A stretch of DNA of 64,000 nucleotides from positions 19,721 to 83,720 of the forward strand of contig CAMJXE010000003.1 in assembly GCA_946409645.1 (NCBI GenBank). The letters run 5' to 3'. The position numbers and the translations under genes are program-made. Position 1 is the first letter of the stretch; every line of letters starts with the position of its first letter. Under the pieces are notes generated by a model that worked only from the letters and a program-made list of their open reading frames with translations, had not been told where the DNA came from and did no database searches. Source of the DNA: an uncultured Bacteroidales bacterium (GTDB lineage Bacteria; Bacteroidota; Bacteroidia; Bacteroidales; WCHB1-69). Positions 29,484-48,570 of this stretch are shown here, piece after piece.

Positions 29484-32400
29484 ATGAAGAAACTAATTAC
29501 AATGACAATCATGGTGCTGGTCGTTTCGGTGGTGATGGCGCAGTCACCGGAGAAATTCAGCTATCAGGCGGTGGTGCGCAACGCGAGCAACAGTCTGGTG
29601 GTAAACGCGCCAGTTGGTGTGCGCGTGAGCGTGCTGCAGGGCACAGCCACCGGTAGCCCGGTGTATGTGGAAACCCATACGGTCACCACCAACGTCAACG
29701 GACTGGTGACCTTGCAAATCGGTGCAGGCAACGCCACGATGGGCTCCCTTGCGACGGTGAACTGGGGTGAAGGTCCCTACTTCCTGAAATCGGAAATCGA
29801 CCCCAACGGCGGAACCGACTACACCATTGTGAGTTCCCAGCAGCTGATGAGTGTGCCGTATGCACTGTACGCCTCCGAGGCAGGCAATGTACCTGTATTC
29901 GCCGTCACCCCGACGGATTCCGGCTATGTGCTGACGCTGACACCCGCCGAGGGTCCTGCCCAAACCTATATCTTGCGCAACGGCGTTGACGGAGCACAAG
30001 GTCCGCAGGGACCTGCAGGTCCGCAGGGAGCCGCTGGCGTGAACGGCAACGATGGTCGGGGCATCCAGAGCATCACCGCGACCTCAACGGTGGGAAATAT
30101 CGATATCTACACCATCACCTACACTGACGGGAACACTTCCACGTTCACTGTGACTAACGGCGTAGCAGGTCCGCAGGGACCGCAAGGCGAAACCGGTTCG
30201 CAAGGTCCTCAAGGTGAACAGGGTTTGCAGGGTCCTCAAGGTGAAACTGGCGCGAACGGCCTCTCCGCGTACCAGATTTGGCTGAATGCCGGAAATGTCG
30301 GCTCGGAGGCTGACTTTTTAGAGGCGATCAGAGGCGCGGACGGCGTGGATGGAAGTGACGGTGCGGACGGAAGCGACGGCTTCTCGCCTCTCGTGAGCAT
30401 GAACACGGTGGATGGCACGGGCACTTACGTCACCATCACGGACGCCACGGGCGACCACACCTTCCTGATTCCCGAGAACTCCGCGAGCAGCGAGCTGACC
30501 CAACTGCCCGCCAATTGGGCGGAGAACGATCCCTACAGCCCGCAGTATATCATGAACAAACCGACGCTCTTTAGCGGCGACTACAACGACCTGACCAACA
30601 AGCCGATACTGTTTGATGGTGATTACAATTCATTAAGCAGCAAGCCAGTTCTCTTCGACGGCAACTATAATTCATTGACCAACAAGCCGAATTTGGCAAC
30701 GGTGGCCACGACCGGCAACTACAACGACTTGACCAACAAGCCCACCATCCCGACGGTGAACAACGCCACGCTAACCATCCAGAAGAACGGCTCCAACGTG
30801 GGCACCTTCACGGCCAACCAGAACACGAACCAGACCGTGAACATCACTGTACCGACCTCGACCGACCAACTGACCAACAACAGCGGCTACATCACAATCA
30901 GCGACGTTCCCGCGCAGGTGAATGCCGACTGGAACGCCACCTCCGGCGCAGCAGAAATCCTCAACAAACCGGAGATTCCGACAGTGCCGACGAATGTGAG
31001 CGCCTTCAACAATGATGCGGGCTACATCACGGCTGAACAGATGCCGGCGAGTATGTCGGGTACCCAAACGGGCGACATCATGTACTGGGATGCGACTACG
31101 GCCACATGGATTATGATGCCGGCAGGAAGCGCGGGCCAGGTGCTGACCATGGAGAACGGGGTTCCCGTGTGGGCGAACCTTCCGGACCACATCACGATGA
31201 ACATGCCGCCTACCGTCATCACCTCCGCTCCTTTGGAAGTGACACAGTCGTCGGCTTTGTGCGGCGGTGAAGTAACCAGCGACGGCAGTGTGCAGCTCAC
31301 CGCCTGCGGTGTCTGCTGGAGCACACACCATTTCCCGACCATCGCGGATGCGCATACGGAGAACGACTTGAGTGTGGGTGCGTTCACGTCGCATGTCACA
31401 GGCCTTGCCCACCACACCACCTACTATGTGCGGGCATACGCCACCAATAGCATAGGCACCACCTACGGCGCGGAGATGACCTTCACCACGGCGGACATTC
31501 CCTCTGGCAGCGTGACCATGCCCGATCCTTGCTCGGTGGACACCAACACCATTTGGCATCCGACTCTCGGTCCCGGCAGCACCCTCTGCGCTGGCACCGA
31601 CAGCGTGGAACTCACCCTGAACAACTACCAGTACGGCAGCATCCAGTGGCAGTATTCCTCCGACACTGTCTCTTGGTTTAACATCCCCGGAGCCATTGAC
31701 ACGCTGTTGGTTTACAAACCCGAGCAGACGCAATACGTCAGAGCTTCGGTTTCGACTGCCAATTGTCCTCCAGAGTATTCGCCGGTGAAGCTGTTGCTGA
31801 AGACTCCTGCCGCATACGCAGGCATCTCGCGCACGGCTAATGTTGGCGACACAGTGCGTCTGCAAGCCAACAAGGAAGAGAGAGCGACGGGCAGCTGGCA
31901 GATTCTGCAAGGCACTGGCGGTTTTCTTTCTAACCCAAATGAAGATTACACGAAGTTCTACGGCACCGACTCGCTCTACCGCTTGCGTTGGACTCTTACC
32001 AACAATTGCGGATCCAGTTCCGATGACATCAGCGTGCGTTATGTGCAGACGGTCGTGAGTGACAAAGTGGTGATGGTGGATACTACGGACATCATTTTCA
32101 GTGATTCGGCGCAGATGGCACAGGGTTATTATGTGATTTCTTTCAGCGACCCGAATATCGTGATTGGTGACTCCACTATTTTGGTCAGCCTGATTAACGG
32201 CGGTTTCCTGCGCATGGTCGATTCTTGGTCGATGGCCAACGATTCCACGTATGCTATGTACACCTCTCAGGCCTCGTTGTACGATGTGTTGGAGAGCGGT
32301 GTGATACAGTTTGATGCCATAATTGGAGAAAATGATGCCGACAATCCGTCTCCCCAAGAGTCGCAGGTGCGGAGAGTGGAGTACCTTGATCACATTCCCA

Positions 32401-34676
32401 CCCGGCGTGAATTGCGCGACAATCCGGAGATGTTCAGGGCAGAAAAAGTCTATCTTCTTCCCACGAACTTGGGAGGCGCAAATGGCGGTATTTCACCAGG
32501 TTCTTCTTTGCGGGGTGGAAGCACGCAACACAGAGGGTATAATGCGGACAGCACTTTAAAATGGTTAGTACCTGAATGGGCACCTGACTTCAGCTATAAA
32601 CTTGAAAATGTGGAATTCTGGCTGGATGCCAACCCAATGCTTGAATTAAACAGGGAAATCCGCTGTTTAAAATTCGGCATTTATGGTGCAAGGCTCCATC
32701 TGAAAGCGGATTTTATACCTAAAATAACCGCAGCCGGGGAGTTTACCGGAATTGAATGGAAACCCATCAACCTCGAAGTGCCTTTTGCCGTCCCTGTCGG
32801 TCCGGTGGTGATTCCGTTCACGGTGGATTGCGGAATCACGTTGTCTGCCAAAGGCACTATAGAGGTTTCAGAAGAAGTTAAATACAAGATAGAAGCCGAT
32901 GCCAATTTTACCAGAGGAGTCAGTTATTGGGGAAAAAGTAACACATTTTCTGTTGACAGGTCCCAGACAGGAGAATTTAAAGTGGAGAAAGTTACTGATA
33001 ATCTTGTGGCATCGATAGATTTGACTCTTTCAGCAGCCTGTTATATGAATGTGAAGTTAGCCGCAGTGGTAGGGCCTCGCGTACAGGCGGGTTTCAAGGC
33101 AAAAATGAAAGGTTGCTGGGGTCTGAACGACAATCAGGGCTGGCAGGTAGGATTCAAAGGTGAATTATATACGAAATTGGATATCAAAGCAACCAAATTC
33201 GTGGATAAGTTTATCCCTGACAACTGGTCAAGCGAGATTTCCTGGCCTTTCTTGGATCATTCATTTCCTGATACCATGCACATGTTCAAAGGTAATAACG
33301 AAACCGTTTCACACACTCAGTCAAGCAATATAGTGAAGGTAAAAGTATTGGGGAAAGGCGGCAAGCCTATCCGTAACGCTCTTGTTTATTTTGAACCGAA
33401 AAGCGGCCTTGTCACTGCAACATCATCATTCACGGACACTAGCGGTGTGGCTCAAACTATATGGAGTCCTGCTTCGGGTTTGGGTTATGACATCCACCAG
33501 CTTTACGCATACGTGTACGATTGTGAGCAGAAGCCCATAAAAGGTGCGCCTGTGGTATTTACCGCATACGAGTACACAGGGTGTTCCAACTCCACTTTGA
33601 ATATGAAATACATCCTCAACGGGAACAATCTGACGTTGCAGGCATCTGGCGGTGTGCCACCATACACCTATTCCGTGGATGGTGAGAATTTTGTGGCTTT
33701 GAACGAGTTGCCTACAGTTTCAGCTTTAGCCTCACATGTGCTGTCGGTAAAAGATTGCAACGGCTGTGTGCGCAGCATCACATACGGTTATTCTGGGAAC
33801 ACGAATTGCGACTGGTCAGGCCTCGACATTGATGTGACATTCAGCGGCGGCACGCTGCAGCTTCAGGGTACGGGCGGCAATCCTCCTTACAAATATTCTA
33901 TAGGCGGCATTTCCTATTCCACGGACAATGAGTTTTCCTCCTTATCGCCCGGTGAATATACCGTTTATGTGCTTGATGGTTCTGGATGCGTCTTCAGCAA
34001 AGATATCACCATTGAGGAGAATGATTTTTTGGATCTTTCCGAGTACAATGTACAGCCATGTGGCGGCGCGGAAACGGTCACCGACTACGACGGCAATGTC
34101 TATCCTACGATACAGATCGGGCAGCAGTGCTGGATGAAGGAGAACCTCCGCACCACACACTATGCCGACGGTGAAATCATTCCGATAGGGTCTGCGTGTT
34201 ACTATCCCAACGGCAATGCCGGCAACAGGGCGCAGTATGGACTTTTGTACACGTGGTATGCGGCCACGCAGAATGTCTCCAGTGGCAGCAACCCCAGTGG
34301 TGTTCGGGGTGCCTGCCCATACGGCTGGCACGTGCCGAGCGATGACGAGTGGAGCCAACTTCTAAGCCAGCCCCAGTTGATGGTCTGCCCGGCCAAAGCA
34401 TTGGCTACGAAGTTCGGCTGGAATATCTCCACCACTCCTTGCTCTCCCGGTTTTGAGAACTGGTATAACAATGGCAGCGGATTCAACGCGGCTCCTGCAG
34501 GTCTATACAACAATGGTTACGGCGATTTCGGTTCGGTTGCGTGGTTCTGGAGTGCTACCGAGAGCAGCAACAACTACGCGTGGAACCGTAACTTGAGCTA
34601 CGACGGTACGGGAGTGGTCCGCGACAACAGCTGCAATAAGGCGCGCGCCTATTCTGTCCGCTGTCTCCGCGATTAA
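29484..34676 (+). CDS. Large mosaic surface protein: collagen-like GPQ repeats, YNDLTNKP repeats, Ig/FN3-like and SprB-like repeats, C-terminal FISUMP domain; DGR variable protein
   Basis: 1730 aa with signal peptide; GPQGPQGETGSQGPQGEQG, repeated DYNDLTNKP, GGVPPYTYSVDG / GGNPPYKYSIGG, ENLRTTHYADGEIIP ... YGWHVPSDDEWSQL ... YSVRCLRD*. Confidence 0.92.
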   Translation: MKKLITMTIMVLVVSVVMAQSPEKFSYQAVVRNASNSLVVNAPVGVRVSVLQGTATGSPVYVETHTVTTNVNGLVTLQIGAGNATMGSLATVNWGEGPYFLKSEIDPNGGTDYTIVSSQQLMSVPYALYASEAGNVPVFAVTPTDSGYVLTLTPAEGPAQTYILRNGVDGAQGPQGPAGPQGAAGVNGNDGRGIQSITATSTVGNIDIYTITYTDGNTSTFTVTNGVAGPQGPQGETGSQGPQGEQGLQGPQGETGANGLSAYQIWLNAGNVGSEADFLEAIRGADGVDGSDGADGSDGFSPLVSMNTVDGTGTYVTITDATGDHTFLIPENSASSELTQLPANWAENDPYSPQYIMNKPTLFSGDYNDLTNKPILFDGDYNSLSSKPVLFDGNYNSLTNKPNLATVATTGNYNDLTNKPTIPTVNNATLTIQKNGSNVGTFTANQNTNQTVNITVPTSTDQLTNNSGYITISDVPAQVNADWNATSGAAEILNKPEIPTVPTNVSAFNNDAGYITAEQMPASMSGTQTGDIMYWDATTATWIMMPAGSAGQVLTMENGVPVWANLPDHITMNMPPTVITSAPLEVTQSSALCGGEVTSDGSVQLTACGVCWSTHHFPTIADAHTENDLSVGAFTSHVTGLAHHTTYYVRAYATNSIGTTYGAEMTFTTADIPSGSVTMPDPCSVDTNTIWHPTLGPGSTLCAGTDSVELTLNNYQYGSIQWQYSSDTVSWFNIPGAIDTLLVYKPEQTQYVRASVSTANCPPEYSPVKLLLKTPAAYAGISRTANVGDTVRLQANKEERATGSWQILQGTGGFLSNPNEDYTKFYGTDSLYRLRWTLTNNCGSSSDDISVRYVQTVVSDKVVMVDTTDIIFSDSAQMAQGYYVISFSDPNIVIGDSTILVSLINGGFLRMVDSWSMANDSTYAMYTSQASLYDVLESGVIQFDAIIGENDADNPSPQESQVRRVEYLDHIPTRRELRDNPEMFRAEKVYLLPTNLGGANGGISPGSSLRGGSTQHRGYNADSTLKWLVPEWAPDFSYKLENVEFWLDANPMLELNREIRCLKFGIYGARLHLKADFIPKITAAGEFTGIEWKPINLEVPFAVPVGPVVIPFTVDCGITLSAKGTIEVSEEVKYKIEADANFTRGVSYWGKSNTFSVDRSQTGEFKVEKVTDNLVASIDLTLSAACYMNVKLAAVVGPRVQAGFKAKMKGCWGLNDNQGWQVGFKGELYTKLDIKATKFVDKFIPDNWSSEISWPFLDHSFPDTMHMFKGNNETVSHTQSSNIVKVKVLGKGGKPIRNALVYFEPKSGLVTATSSFTDTSGVAQTIWSPASGLGYDIHQLYAYVYDCEQKPIKGAPVVFTAYEYTGCSNSTLNMKYILNGNNLTLQASGGVPPYTYSVDGENFVALNELPTVSALASHVLSVKDCNGCVRSITYGYSGNTNCDWSGLDIDVTFSGGTLQLQGTGGNPPYKYSIGGISYSTDNEFSSLSPGEYTVYVLDGSGCVFSKDITIEENDFLDLSEYNVQPCGGAETVTDYDGNVYPTIQIGQQCWMKENLRTTHYADGEIIPIGSACYYPNGNAGNRAQYGLLYTWYAATQNVSSGSNPSGVRGACPYGWHVPSDDEWSQLLSQPQLMVCPAKALATKFGWNISTTPCSPGFENWYNNGSGFNAAPAGLYNNGYGDFGSVAWFWSATESSNNYAWNRNLSYDGTGVVRDNSCNKARAYSVRCLRD
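34527..34673 (+). repeat. DGR variable region (VR)
   Basis: 147 bp, 9 mismatches to 35003-35149; 8 of 9 at positions where TR has A; located at the 3' end of the FISUMP gene. Confidence 0.95.
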
Positions 34677-34689
34677 AAAATCAGATTCA

Positions 34690-34728
34690 ATCAAATTTCC
34701 CCAGCCCGATAGGGCAGGGAAATTTGAT
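34690..34728. promoter_or_regulatory. Candidate DGR target-site hairpin/cruciform downstream of VR
   Basis: ATCAAATTTCCC / GGGAAATTTGAT 12-bp stem enclosing GCCC-GATA-GGGC, 16 nt after VR end. Confidence 0.7.
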
Positions 34729-34742
34729 CACCTTGTGAAAAA

Positions 34743-34767
34743 CCGCCCTGCGCGATAGCGCGGGCGG
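34743..34767. repeat. Second hairpin with GATA loop
   Basis: CCGCCC-t-GCGC-GATA-GCGC-GGGCGG. Confidence 0.7.
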
Positions 34768-34885
34768 AAAGCAGAAAAAAGAAATAAAAAAAACAACCCC
34801 TGTCAGCCAGAGTTTTGGATTCCTACGGGAACTAAAAGAGTGCATCACAAAAAAAATCATATCGGGCAGCCCGGTTCAATAGGAG

Positions 34886-34907
34886 TCCCGCGCTTTCCAG
34901 CGCGGGA
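34886..34907. repeat. Hairpin upstream of TR
   Basis: TCCCGCGCT-TTCC-AGCGCGGGA perfect 9-bp stem. Confidence 0.6.
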
Positions 34908-35002
34908 AAAGCAGAGAACTCCAGAATTTGTTGGACCAATTAAAATGCTGGGTCATCACGTTTGTGGGGGCGAAGGCAACATTTGAGCGGCTGCGAAAAA
35001 GC

Positions 35003-35149
35003 TTCGGTTCGGTTGCGTGGTTCTGGAGTGCTACCGAGAACAACAACAACAACGCGTGGAACCGTAACTTGAGCTACGACGGAACGGGAGTGGGACGCGA
35101 CAACAACAACAATAAGGCGCGCGCCTATTCTGTCCGCTGTCTCCGCGAT
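35003..35149 (+). repeat. DGR template repeat (TR)
   Basis: Matches VR at constant offset 476; A-rich AAC runs at the variable positions (gagaacaacaacaacaacgcg, gacaacaacaacaataag). Confidence 0.95.
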
Positions 35150-35182
35150 ATAATTAGACAGGGGTTTTATTTTTTTGAAAAA

Positions 35183-35896
35183 ATGAGAATTGCAGACATT
35201 TACAACTTGGAGAAAGATAACCGGTCGTCTATCTTTTTGATTCGGGACGGGAATTTCTATCGGGCATACGAGCATTCGGCGTTGCTGTTTTCAGAGAACA
35301 TCGCGGACTATCACCTGATGAAACGACTCTATAAGGTGATCAACACGGAGATGGTCTATCTCGGTTTTCCACAAACTGCATTGCCCAAAATATTGAAGGA
35401 TAAAGGGTTGCTGGTCCAGAGCGATACATCTCAGTTCGTGGTGTTGTCGCCGTTTGAGTCAAAGCAGGATTTTGAGTTGTGGAAAGCCTCTGTGCCATGC
35501 CATGCGAGGGAGGAGGGCGAACTGCTGCTTCTTGCACAGGAGCGTGTGCTTCCGCGCTTCACCGACAACCATCCGCTGCATGTCTATAAAACAGGGTACG
35601 ACTGTATGGTATCGGTGTATAAGCTGGTGGAGAACATGAAGCGCGGGTACAAGTATTCTGTCGGTGAGGAGTTGAAAAAGGACGCTTTCCAGCTGGGCCT
35701 GATTGCTTTCCGTATTGCGCAAGGTGGGAGAGGCAGCTCTGTTGTGAAATTGTATGAGAAAGCGTTCCTGCAGGTGGATGTGGTACGGCTCCGGCTGCGT
35801 CTTCTTCAGGATTTGCACCAGCTCACAATACCCGCTTTCACACGGGTGAATACCCAGATAGAGTATTTCGTAAAGCAGCTGGAGAAAGGCTGTTGA
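35183..35896 (+). CDS. DGR accessory protein: MutS domain I-like N-terminus fused to Avd-like four-helix bundle C-terminus
   Basis: SSIFLIRDGNFYRAYEHSALLF...VYLGFPQTALPKILKDKGL resembles MutS-I; C-terminal YDCMVSVYKLVENMKRG...VDVVRLRLRLLQDLHQLTIPAFTRVNTQIEYFVKQL follows the Avd pattern. Confidence 0.75.
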   Translation: MRIADIYNLEKDNRSSIFLIRDGNFYRAYEHSALLFSENIADYHLMKRLYKVINTEMVYLGFPQTALPKILKDKGLLVQSDTSQFVVLSPFESKQDFELWKASVPCHAREEGELLLLAQERVLPRFTDNHPLHVYKTGYDCMVSVYKLVENMKRGYKYSVGEELKKDAFQLGLIAFRIAQGGRGSSVVKLYEKAFLQVDVVRLRLRLLQDLHQLTIPAFTRVNTQIEYFVKQLEKGC

Positions 35897-35899
35897 TGA

Positions 35900-37096
35900 A
35901 TGCTGTCAACCATGCCGGAACAATTGTCTTTGTTTGACGAACCGAGGCTGTTGGAAGCTCTCTATAAGTCCTGGGTTGATGCGCGGCGTCACAAGCGCAA
36001 CACGATAAACGCCCTCAAATTCGAGTTGGACCTCGAAAGGAACATCTATCAACTGTATGAGGAAATATTATATGGCACATATAAAGTCTCACCGTCCATT
36101 TGTTTTATAGTTGATAAACCTGTCAAGCGGGAGATTTTCGCCGCCAACTTCCGTGATCGTGTTGTGCATCACTATGTCATCAACCAGCTGATGCCCGTTT
36201 TTGAGAACCAATTCATCCACGACACCTATTCCTGCAGGGTGGGGAAGGGTACGCTATTTGGCATCCGGCGTCTACAGAAGTTCATTCGCAGCTGCACCGA
36301 CAATTACCGCAAGGAAGCCTTTGTGCTGAAATTGGATATCCAAGGATTCTTTATGAATATCCGGAAACCTTTGCTTCTCGGAAAAGTAGATTCTCTGATT
36401 GAACGTAAGTACTCAGGATGGGACAAGTCGTGGCTTCGATTTCTTGTGCGTCAGATTATTTTGAACGACCCAACGGAAAATTGTATTATGAAAGGAAACC
36501 TTTCGGACTGGAAAGGGTTGCCAGCGAACAAAAGTCTGTTCACCACGCCGCGAGATTGCGGACTGCCCATCGGGAACCTGACCAGCCAGATATTTGCGAA
36601 CGATTATCTTGCCGATTTCGACCGTTTCATGAAAGAAACCTTGAAGTTGAAATATTATGGACGTTACGTGGATGATTTTTTCGTGGTACATGAGGACAGG
36701 AATTATTTGAAGTCCTTAGTGCCTGTAATCAGGGATTACCTCGACAACACAGTGTGTGCCATACTTCACCCTTCCAAGGTGTATTTGCAGTCGTGTCACA
36801 GGGGCGTTTTGTTCGTGGGTGCGTATATTGCTCCTTACAGGACATACCCTTCCAAGAGAATACGCCATAATTTCAGAAAAGCTATGAAAGAGCTTTCCCT
36901 GCAATTTTCATCGGATCATGAGGTGCATCCAGCACAAAGTTTGAATAAAACAAGGGCACGGGTCAATTCATATCTCGGTTTTTGCAGGCACTTCCGAGCA
37001 GAACGGATGTCTAGCTCAGTGTTGGCAACGATGCCACATGAATTTTTCCGTTGGTTTTTGATAGGGGGTCAATGTGCGAAAGTGGAAAAGATATAA
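35900..37096 (+). CDS. DGR reverse transcriptase
   Basis: 398 aa; FRDRVVHHYV, LKLDIQGFFMNI, GLPIGNLTSQIFANDYLADFD, YGRYVDDFFVVH; starts 4 nt after accessory gene stop. Confidence 0.96.
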   Translation: MLSTMPEQLSLFDEPRLLEALYKSWVDARRHKRNTINALKFELDLERNIYQLYEEILYGTYKVSPSICFIVDKPVKREIFAANFRDRVVHHYVINQLMPVFENQFIHDTYSCRVGKGTLFGIRRLQKFIRSCTDNYRKEAFVLKLDIQGFFMNIRKPLLLGKVDSLIERKYSGWDKSWLRFLVRQIILNDPTENCIMKGNLSDWKGLPANKSLFTTPRDCGLPIGNLTSQIFANDYLADFDRFMKETLKLKYYGRYVDDFFVVHEDRNYLKSLVPVIRDYLDNTVCAILHPSKVYLQSCHRGVLFVGAYIAPYRTYPSKRIRHNFRKAMKELSLQFSSDHEVHPAQSLNKTRARVNSYLGFCRHFRAERMSSSVLATMPHEFFRWFLIGGQCAKVEKI

Positions 37097-37148: not shown

Positions 37149-37440
37149 AAATCTTGCGAAATTGAAAAACAATATTAACAATTAATTGTTAAATAATTAC
37201 AATACAAAAACACAACGCATTGATTTTCAGTTTGTAAAAAAAATATTCCAAAAGTCTTGACAGAGGTTGAATTTTGTAGTATATTTGCAGCCTGAAGATA
37301 AAAGATTATGGGAAAGAAAGATCCTATTGAAGAAGCCCGGAGATACGTGGCCAACGCCGAAGAGGTCATCAAGAAAGCCAATTATGACCCGGAACTGAAA
37401 AGCTACACAGACAGTAAGTACATTAAGGCAGCCGGAGACT
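37149..37440 (+). repeat. Copy 1 of tandem duplication (promoter region plus 5' part of gene)
   Basis: Near-identical to ~37901-38190, offset 750-752. Confidence 0.9.
37257..37287 (+). promoter_or_regulatory. Promoter of first tandem copy
   Basis: TTG-N20-TATATTTG. Confidence 0.7.
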
Positions 37441-37709
37441 ACCTTTGGAAGGGTTGTCTCATCGCTCTTGAAACGGTTTTTCACGTGCGGACGGGTAAAG
37501 GCCGCCCATCTATTGACAAGTACAGAAATGCTGTCGCTAAACGCGACAAAAAACTGCTGAATTCCGTGAATATAGGCTATGAGACCATGCATCTTGTCAT
37601 GGGCTACGACGGCAACAGAAGCAAACGAATCTGCGACACGGGTTTCGAACTCGCCAATGACATCATCGACCATTGCGCGACGCTGCTGCCGAAGGTTGTC
37701 TGCGCGTGA
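37308..37709 (+). CDS. Small alpha-helical bundle protein (DUF5618-like), copy 1
   Basis: 133 aa MGKKDPIEEARRYVANAEEVIKKANYDPELKSYTDSKYIKAAGDYLWKGCLIALE; family name from recall. Confidence 0.6.
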   Translation: MGKKDPIEEARRYVANAEEVIKKANYDPELKSYTDSKYIKAAGDYLWKGCLIALETVFHVRTGKGRPSIDKYRNAVAKRDKKLLNSVNIGYETMHLVMGYDGNRSKRICDTGFELANDIIDHCATLLPKVVCA

Positions 37710-37900: not shown

Positions 37901-38190
37901 AAATCTTGCGAAATTGAAAAACAATATTAACAATTAATTGTTAAATCATTACAATACAAAAACTCAATGCATTGATTTTCAGTTTGTAAAAAATATTCCA
38001 AAAGTCTTGACAGAGGTTGACTTTTGTAGTATATTTGCAGCCTGAAGATAAAAGATTATGGAAAAGAAAGATCCTATTGAAGAAGCCCGGAGATACGTGG
38101 CCAACGCGGAAGAGGTCATCAAAAAGGCGAACTATGACCCGGAACTGCAAAGCTATACGGATAGCAAATACATCAAGGCGGCAGGAGACT
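37901..38190 (+). repeat. Copy 2 of tandem duplication
   Basis: aaatcttgcgaaattgaaaaacaatattaacaattaattgttaaat... repeated with few substitutions and a 2-nt poly-A indel. Confidence 0.9.
38007..38037 (+). promoter_or_regulatory. Promoter of second tandem copy
   Basis: TTG-N20-TATATTTG. Confidence 0.7.
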
Positions 38191-38459
38191 ACCTATGGAC
38201 AGGTTGCTTGATTGCCCTCGATGCTTTGTTTGGCATATCCAAACGCAAAGGACGTCCCGACATTCGAAAATACAAGGAAGAGGCCGGCAAGCGCGACCGA
38301 AAGCTGCTTAATTCTGTAAATATAGGCTACAATACCATGCATCTGTCCATGGGCTACGATGGAAACAAGGACAAAAGAGTCTGTGATGCCGGTTTCGCCA
38401 ATGCCAACGACATCATCAATCACTGCGCCAGGCTGATGCCCGCACCCGTGTGCGCATGA
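38058..38459 (+). CDS. Small alpha-helical bundle protein (DUF5618-like), copy 2
   Basis: 133 aa paralog of 37308-37709; N-terminal ~60 aa nearly identical, middle diverged. Confidence 0.6.
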   Translation: MEKKDPIEEARRYVANAEEVIKKANYDPELQSYTDSKYIKAAGDYLWTGCLIALDALFGISKRKGRPDIRKYKEEAGKRDRKLLNSVNIGYNTMHLSMGYDGNKDKRVCDAGFANANDIINHCARLMPAPVCA

Positions 38460-38667
38460 TTGTTTGCAATTTGCGATTTAAGGCTTGCGAAGAGCGAGGT
38501 TATGAGGAGTAGGGGCAAATAATCATTCGCCCCTACGGACATCGCAAACCGCAAATCGCAAACCGTAGATCATCGGTGAACGGTCAACGGTGAATTGCAA
38601 ATGTTTTGCGTTTTCAAAAAAAAATTATCGAATAATGTTTTGATATTAAAAAAAGTGTATTTTTGCA

Positions 38668-38727
38668 ACGACAGTTTCCACCACGCTACAAGACGTAAGT
38701 CCAGCGAACCAGGGTGGAACTTTTGTT
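38668..38727 (+). ncRNA. Compact structured RNA upstream of AbiF-like gene (abiF RNA motif candidate)
   Basis: Just after TATTTTTG box (38658-38665): TTCCACC / GGTGGAA, CGCT / AGCG, GAC-GTAA-GTC nested stems, then TTTTGTTT. Confidence 0.7.
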
Positions 38728-38760
38728 TATAATCACCAGAAAAACAAACTATTATACAAT

Positions 38761-39675
38761 ATGATATACAACAAACAACCTTTGAGCATAGAGTCCCAAA
38801 TTTCGCAATTAAAAGAACGTGGACTGATTATTGAAAATGAAATAATTGCGGCAAAAGTTTTGTCCGTTATCAGTTACTTTCGCTTTGCAAATTATCTGCG
38901 ACCATACGAGGCGGACAAAACGAACCATATATTTAAACCTGGGAAATTGTTTGGCGATGTCGTGAAACTATACTATTTTGATAAAAGTTTGAGAGGAATC
39001 GTCTTCTCAGCCATTCAGTCTGTGGAAATTGCGTTGAGAACAAGCATTATACAAAATTTCTCTATAAAGTATGGCCCGTTTTGGTTTATGGACGCCAGCC
39101 TTTTCAAGAATATTCAAATCCACGAAGAATGTGTCCACAGCATTCAGGCTGAATTGTCAAGGACCAAAGAGGATTTCATTCAAGAGCATTTTGACAAATA
39201 TGACAGTCCAAATATGCCGCCCGCATGGAAAACTCTTGAAGTGGTATCATTCGGCACGTTGGGCAAACTCTTCAGTAATTTCAAGGACAACCCTGTCAAA
39301 AAAGCGGTGGCGAGAGGTTTTAATGTGCCGCAACATGTTTTTCTTGAGAGTTGGATAGCAAGTTTGTCTGCATTGCGCAACTGTTGTGCCCATCATGCAA
39401 GGGTTTGGAATAGAGTTTATCCCATAAAACCACAGTTACCGAAATCAAAAATGATGCGTTCTTCTTGGATAGATAATTCCAATATCTTCCCCAATCGTCT
39501 GTATGCAATATTATGTTGTCTTCTGTACTTGACAAACAATATCTCCTCAGATAATTCATTAAAAACAGATATAGTTGGTCTTTTGCGAAATAATTCTATC
39601 GTTGATGTTGCCGCCATGGGTTTCCCGCACGATTGGGAGGAGGAACCGCTGTGGTGCTCCTCTTCGGTTTCGTGA
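38761..39675 (+). CDS. Abi_2/AbiD-AbiF family abortive-infection protein (HEPN)
   Basis: 304 aa; AKVLSVISYFRFANYLRPYE, VEIALRTSIIQNFS, RNCCAHHARVWNR (HEPN Rx4H). Confidence 0.9.
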   Translation: MIYNKQPLSIESQISQLKERGLIIENEIIAAKVLSVISYFRFANYLRPYEADKTNHIFKPGKLFGDVVKLYYFDKSLRGIVFSAIQSVEIALRTSIIQNFSIKYGPFWFMDASLFKNIQIHEECVHSIQAELSRTKEDFIQEHFDKYDSPNMPPAWKTLEVVSFGTLGKLFSNFKDNPVKKAVARGFNVPQHVFLESWIASLSALRNCCAHHARVWNRVYPIKPQLPKSKMMRSSWIDNSNIFPNRLYAILCCLLYLTNNISSDNSLKTDIVGLLRNNSIVDVAAMGFPHDWEEEPLWCSSSVS

Positions 39676-39684
39676 TGTTTTTCT

Positions 39685-39706
39685 TGTCCGCTGCCTCCGC
39701 GATTAA
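39685..39706 (+). repeat. Remnant of a FISUMP gene / VR 3' end
   Basis: tgtccgctgcctccgcgattaa vs VR end tgtccgctgtctccgcgattaa, 21/22 identical, encodes VRCLRD*. Confidence 0.7.
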
Positions 39707-48562: not shown

Positions 48563-48570
48563 GGCTGAAA

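Follow-up and report, generated by a model that had tools for sequence, protein, structure and literature searches.

The AbiF cassette and its surroundings

The window, by which we mean the whole stretch of 64,000 nucleotides analyzed here, comes from a gut- or rumen-type Bacteroidales genome of 3.09 Mb. On its forward strand, a TAnnTTTG promoter box, a nested hairpin RNA, and an Abi_2/HEPN gene, all read directly in the window, form one cassette (positions 38618 to 39691, as delimited by blastn against the related locus L002). The Bacteroidota-type −7 box TATTTTTG (38658 to 38665) is present where the original prediction had placed it, and this type of box is general among relatives, standing upstream in 69 of 72 Bacteroidota RNA-bearing loci versus about 8.5 expected. 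Downstream of the box lies an AbiF-associated structured RNA with putative ends at 38670 and 38728, which our covariance model R1 (see below) matches at 38667 to 38732. It closes with a U-rich 3′ tail (38720 to 38728; the stretch TTTTGTTT occupies 38721 to 38728) that is conserved in relatives and could be a leaky terminator; a sigma-70/terminator scan did not find a standard terminator at this tail. The abiF gene (38761 to 39675, 304 amino acids), by homology that of a ribonuclease toxin, begins with an ATG 32 nt past the T-tract, a spacing that had earlier been given as 34 nt.

The encoded protein is a member of the Abi_2/AbiD-AbiF HEPN family. The Pfam model Abi_2 matches it with 180.4 bits (cut-off, 25.6; E = 5.5e-53), and PADLOC names it AbiD (257 bits, E = 6e-77); AbiD, AbiD1, and AbiF have been handled as a single group (PMC12373285). 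PDB entry 8vz6, the PbAbiF-ncRNA complex, matches the window protein by sequence (E = 5.7e-60), the two proteins being 38 to 40% identical, and the same entry (“PbAbiF dimer bound to ncRNA”) is the sole significant PDB fold match of the AlphaFold model of the window protein (pLDDT, 90; E = 1.1e-22; TM, 0.87/0.89). The sequence RNCCAH (residues 206 to 211, positions 39376 to 39393) conforms to the HEPN R-φ-xxx-H motif, its R and H are invariant in our protein alignment (A3), and R206 and H211 align on R210 and H215 of PbAbiF in 8vz6, where the double mutant is inactive (PMC12373285). With Pfam, PADLOC, and both the sequence and the fold of 8vz6 in agreement, the earlier reading of this ORF as an AbiF-type protein stands; toxicity and RNase activity are predicted for it. 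No relative of the window AbiF was found in the viral contigs searched.

Upstream of the cassette, the window contains a diversity-generating retroelement (29484 to 37096) with a reverse transcriptase (35900 to 37096), a template repeat near 35003 to 35149, and a variable repeat (34527 to 34673) at the 3′ end of the gene for a 1,730-amino-acid Fib_succ_major/collagen protein. The repeats are identical at 138 of 147 positions, and 8 of the 9 differences fall on an A of the template. Between the reverse transcriptase and abiF are two adjacent copies of a DUF5618 protein (37308 to 37709 and 38058 to 38459). A link between abiF and the retroelement was considered and rejected, as the examined stretches of G026, G039, G031, and G019 contain no reverse transcriptase close to abiF. 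In G039 and G031, two other genomes of the genus, genes resembling the target of the window retroelement are located directly upstream of an abiF cassette (L228, 13855 to 16854, and L229, 2671 to 6444); a reverse transcriptase was not found in the stretches examined.

A structured RNA upstream of abiF

The RNA is a nested hairpin whose named arms, together with the mini-hairpin at its tip, all lie at the places given for them in the original prediction. In the outer helix, TTCCACC (38676 to 38682) pairs with GGTGGAA (38713 to 38719), with compensatory change on both sides in all 7 pairs; in the inner helix, CGCT (38684 to 38687) pairs with AGCG (38703 to 38706), with such change in 3 of 4 pairs. 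The mini-hairpin GAC-GTAA-GTC (38692 to 38701) occupies the apical loop, and the inner 3′ arm is followed by an internal bulge, AACCAG (38707 to 38712), whose C at 38709 is invariant in 50/50 best matches. Folded as a single sequence, the RNA is moderately better than its shuffles (z = −2.5 for 72 nt and −1.8 for 59 nt), values too modest for folding alone to prove an RNA, so that the proof has to come from comparison.

The leaders of abiF homologues from other Bacteroidales show the same hairpin with altered sequence. A plain MAFFT alignment of 24 such leaders, folded with no structure given, recovered the outer and the inner helix, 6 of 10 pairs showing compensatory change, and a direct count on this alignment gave both-side change in 7 of 11 pairs. 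Paired cells amounted to 90.9%, compared with 33 to 44% when the partner was slid and 80.9% in shuffles (0 of 500 shuffles as high), and there were 25 double-change cells versus 9.1 in shuffles. A model-based alignment of 83 matches (82 distinct), which leans toward the structure because it was fitted to it, had 94.8% of cells paired, both-side change in 10 of 11 pairs, and 153 double-change cells versus 35 in shuffles. Covariation in homologous loci, named in the original prediction as a check, is therefore strongly positive in both kinds of alignment, and a structured RNA kept by compensatory change lies beside abiF, as in AbiF-ncRNA systems. The mini-hairpin is a subclade insertion confined to the window and its nearest relatives (L002, L003, L005, and L044), and since it hardly varies, it has no covariation support.

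A second check named there, the Rfam abiF covariance model, came out negative: RF03085 (cut-off, 37 bits) has no match in the window or the whole genome at E values up to 10, and by covariance-model score the window RNA is not a member of this family, while its topology (helix, 1 nt, short helix, loop, and 6-nt bulge, upstream of abiF) is that of RF03085. We built our own covariance model, R1, from the 24-leader MAFFT alignment. R1 matches the window RNA with 55.2 bits (E = 1.7e-13), a score that is not independent because the window and its close relatives were among the source sequences of the model. This match is the sole significant one in the window and across the 3.09-Mb genome, where nothing else falls below an E value of 0.1. 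The other R1 matches in the window, at 48565 and 63844, are weak and at chance level, and Rfam scans of the window returned two tRNAs, all other matches being chance ones that stayed under the gathering score. In a set of 100 relative genomes, RF03085 scored above its cut-off in 11, and R1 gave 22 matches below an E value of 1e-4, at different places.

The two models are bridged by hybrid RNAs of the CGCCUCU type, which match both RF03085 and R1 (42.6 and 60.5 bits, respectively, for L046; 42.0 and 56.3 for L105; 40.1 and 61.6 for L100; 38 and 39.5 for L013) and thereby connect the window class with the RF03085 class; L046 and L100 adjoin the closest RF03085-positive AbiFs. We attribute the negative RF03085 result to this model describing another sequence class of the same RNA. 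The modest z-scores and the missing RF03085 match would be compatible with a hairpin that folds by chance because the leader is AT rich and has nothing to do with AbiF function, but the strong covariation, the genome-unique R1 match, and the linkage across genera described below contradict this idea, to which we give practically no weight. The same three observations bear out the earlier claim of a dedicated upstream structured RNA.

Linkage, RNA classes, and RNAs without abiF

A search of 393 Bacteroidales genomes with R1 yielded 64 matches at an E value of 0.001 or better, of which 40 lie just upstream of a whole or partial abiF on the same strand, with a median gap of 27 nt; unlike the score of the window RNA, this linkage in other genomes is independent evidence. 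The remaining 24 have no same-strand abiF called nearby. Some of these are clearly remnants, and others are unexplained or false; palindromic matches on both strands of G405:C86 and a short match in G339 are probably false. Viewed from the protein side, the combined lists hold 49 abiF matches of more than 780 nt; 31 of these have an R1 RNA, and the other 18 have mostly RNAs of the RF03085 class or of other classes. A small number of full-length AbiFs, L034 in G044 among them, have no recognizable RNA upstream. When the window is compared with its 90%-identical copy L002 (G026), blastn similarity extends over 38618 to 39691 at 91% and then stops, the flanks being unrelated; with L003, it covers 38611 to 39638 at 71%. 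Homology between genomes thus ends at the cassette borders: the promoter, the RNA, and abiF move together as a single unit. At some loci (L047, at 1178 to 1248 and 1423 to 1493; also L113 and L118), a single abiF is preceded by a tandem pair of abiF-type hairpins, an arrangement also seen in RCd22 of Clostridioides difficile.

At least four sequence classes, which share one scaffold, can be distinguished among the leaders: the window class (CACGCUUCCC...AGCGNACC, also written CACGCU...AGCGAACCAG), the RF03085 class (AAGCCUCU...AUGCUCAAA), and the classes CCCCGC and GCAUACC. Placed on a tree of 85 AbiF proteins, the RNA classes require 15 label changes, compared with 49.3 for shuffled labels (0 of 200 shuffles as low); classes were assigned by simple patterns, so that some sequences labeled “none” (L103, L119, and L127) are missed members. 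RNA class and AbiF clade are inherited together. A separate Abi_2 clade with the motif RN.CAHG (L038, L039, L223, and L262) has a different conserved leader RNA upstream of abiF, AGUGCCRG...ACAAGC...UGCACU.UAA.A.GGA; after it comes a terminator hairpin with a stem that varies in sequence yet stays paired. Rfam gave no match to this leader, which is possibly another AbiF-linked RNA family.

The RNA can also outlive its gene. In L172, the first 19 abiF codons are fused to a C-terminal stub, with promoter and RNA intact; other abiF remnants lie beside an intact RNA in L202, L203, L206, L215, and L219, and a short one was recognized by eye in L214. In L009, the sole RNA-less copy in the close group of the window, one deletion took the RNA along with the abiF start codons. 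The RNA of G091 is encoded on the strand opposite abiF, tail to tail, so that its 3′ end directly adjoins the stop codon of abiF; being convergent, it cannot act as the leader of that gene, which has no recognizable RNA upstream. AbiF-type RNAs also occur as orphans, with no intact abiF nearby and in several cases with a promoter box, at L169, L173, L174, L211, L213, L214, L216, L217, and L218, and at L211 the neighboring genes resemble phage packaging genes. A search for an alternative effector gene beside the orphans turned up no recurring gene; at some six or more of these loci, there is instead a deleted abiF. Retention of the RNA after loss of abiF, together with the tail-to-tail locus, argues for action in trans.

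These patterns bear on two other ways in which the RNA could work. If it acted in cis alone, it would hold down abiF expression as an attenuator or leaky terminator, with no protein binding. For this it would be well placed in the abiF 5′ leader with its U-rich end, and RCd22 also acts through premature termination (PMC12373285). Such a role, which we consider improbable, would leave unexplained why unpaired bulge and loop positions are invariant, why RNA classes track AbiF clades, why RNAs persist without abiF, and why one of them is convergent to abiF; nor did the scan find a standard terminator. Still less probable is a sensor or activator that switches AbiF on, for instance by pairing with phage RNA as an early guide. 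Cas13, in which the RNA has become a guide, is held to descend from AbiF (PMC12165695, PMC12737573), and loops differ between clades, but within the window class the loop is largely conserved and holds no spacer-like variable segment, retention of the RNA after toxin loss fits an antitoxin, and both studied systems are inhibitory.

Proposed mode of action and relation to known systems

We interpret the cassette as a type III-like toxin-antitoxin module whose RNA silences the AbiF dimer by binding to it, a reading to which we assign a probability of roughly 85%. From our own data it draws on the protein family and fold, the RNA covariation, the linkage, the joint inheritance of class and clade, the survival of the RNA after toxin loss, and the convergent locus; transcription, binding, neutralization, toxicity, and a phage trigger are carried over from studied relatives. 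The relation to AbiF-ncRNA toxin-antitoxin systems proposed earlier holds, given the 8vz6 match and the RNA linkage (PMC12373285, PMC12737573). A mobile cassette of this kind would produce from its single Bacteroidota promoter a structured RNA of roughly 58 nt, and the abiF mRNA would arise by read-through past the U-rich tail. AbiF would dimerize through its HEPN domains into an RNase with R206/H211 as the active site. In the resting cell, abundant RNA would bind the dimer, its bulge blocking the active site; if this balance were upset, e.g., by phage infection, free AbiF would cut RNA and growth would stop.

Judged by RCd22-AbiFCd and PbAbiF, the most likely role of the window RNA is to cap AbiF. 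AbiFCd is toxic, and its abiF-motif RNA binds it directly and neutralizes it both in cis and in trans, an effect that requires an intact stem (PMC12373285). PbAbiF is a HEPN dimer with one RNA per monomer, and C32 and U38 in the single-stranded bulge of PbAbiFr inhibit the nuclease (PMC12737573). In the RF03085 class, the bulge after the inner helix reads CAAAUGU, with its first C and its last U at a distance of six positions, like C32 and U38, and by analogy the window bulge AACCAG, with its invariant C at 38709, may correspond to the nuclease-silencing bulge of PbAbiFr. The closest available relatives of PbAbiF, L070 and L071 (88 to 89% identical), carry RF03085-class RNAs (AAGCCUCU...AUGCUCAAAU), which suggests that the solved complex (8vz6) is probably of this class. 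More tentatively, and with the odds somewhat against so broad a statement, Bacteroidota AbiF RNAs could form several specificity classes, each coinherited with an AbiF clade and just one of them covered by RF03085, in which the bulge (NACC[A/C]G in the window class versus CAAAU) silences the own AbiF and the many stand-alone copies that remain after toxin loss guard the host against newly arriving AbiF cassettes of their class.

To the AbiF-RNA toxin-antitoxin family, from which Cas13 is proposed to have arisen, the cassette adds an RNA class not captured by the standard model. Its classes, hybrids, tandem copies, orphans, and convergent locus offer natural material on how antitoxin RNAs recognize AbiF, and also on how such an RNA could have become a guide RNA.

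The system itself is of an already known kind; what is added is the RNA class missed by the public model, which may have been described earlier, along with the mini-hairpin as a subclade insertion and the several patterns in favor of action in trans. With PbAbiF-AbiFr of a Prevotellaceae bacterium (8vz6; Zilberzwige-Tal et al. 2025, as cited in PMC12373285 and PMC12737573), the window shares a Bacteroidota AbiF, its fold, the catalytic Arg/His, and an ncRNA partner of the same topology. Compared through the close relatives of PbAbiF rather than the AbiFr sequence itself, the RNAs differ in class, RF03085 there versus CACGCU...AGCGAACCAG with an apical mini-hairpin in the window. RF03085 RNAs have in common with the window RNA the outer helix, one unpaired nucleotide, short inner helix, apical loop, and 6-nt 3′ bulge, but the sequences of inner stem, loop, and bulge differ, and the window loop is 4 nt longer and holds the mini-hairpin. 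AbiFCd-RCd22 of C. difficile phi027/phiC2 (PMC12373285) likewise combines an Abi_2/HEPN toxin with a structured RNA directly upstream; its HEPN motif is RNQCAH instead of RNCCAH, the phiC2 copy is about 30% identical to the window AbiF, and RCd22 contains two abiF motifs of the RF03085 class plus a separate terminator, in contrast to the one motif of another class in the window. The lactococcal AbiD, AbiD1, and AbiF are also Abi_2 proteins, but they are plasmid borne in Lactococcus with demonstrated antiphage activity, which is putative for the window protein. Type III systems such as ToxIN resemble the cassette in their RNA antitoxin, RNase toxin, and cotranscription (the latter presumed for the window), but the ToxIN toxin has an unrelated fold, and ToxN processes an RNA made of tandem repeats to units of 36 nt, whereas the window RNA is a single copy.
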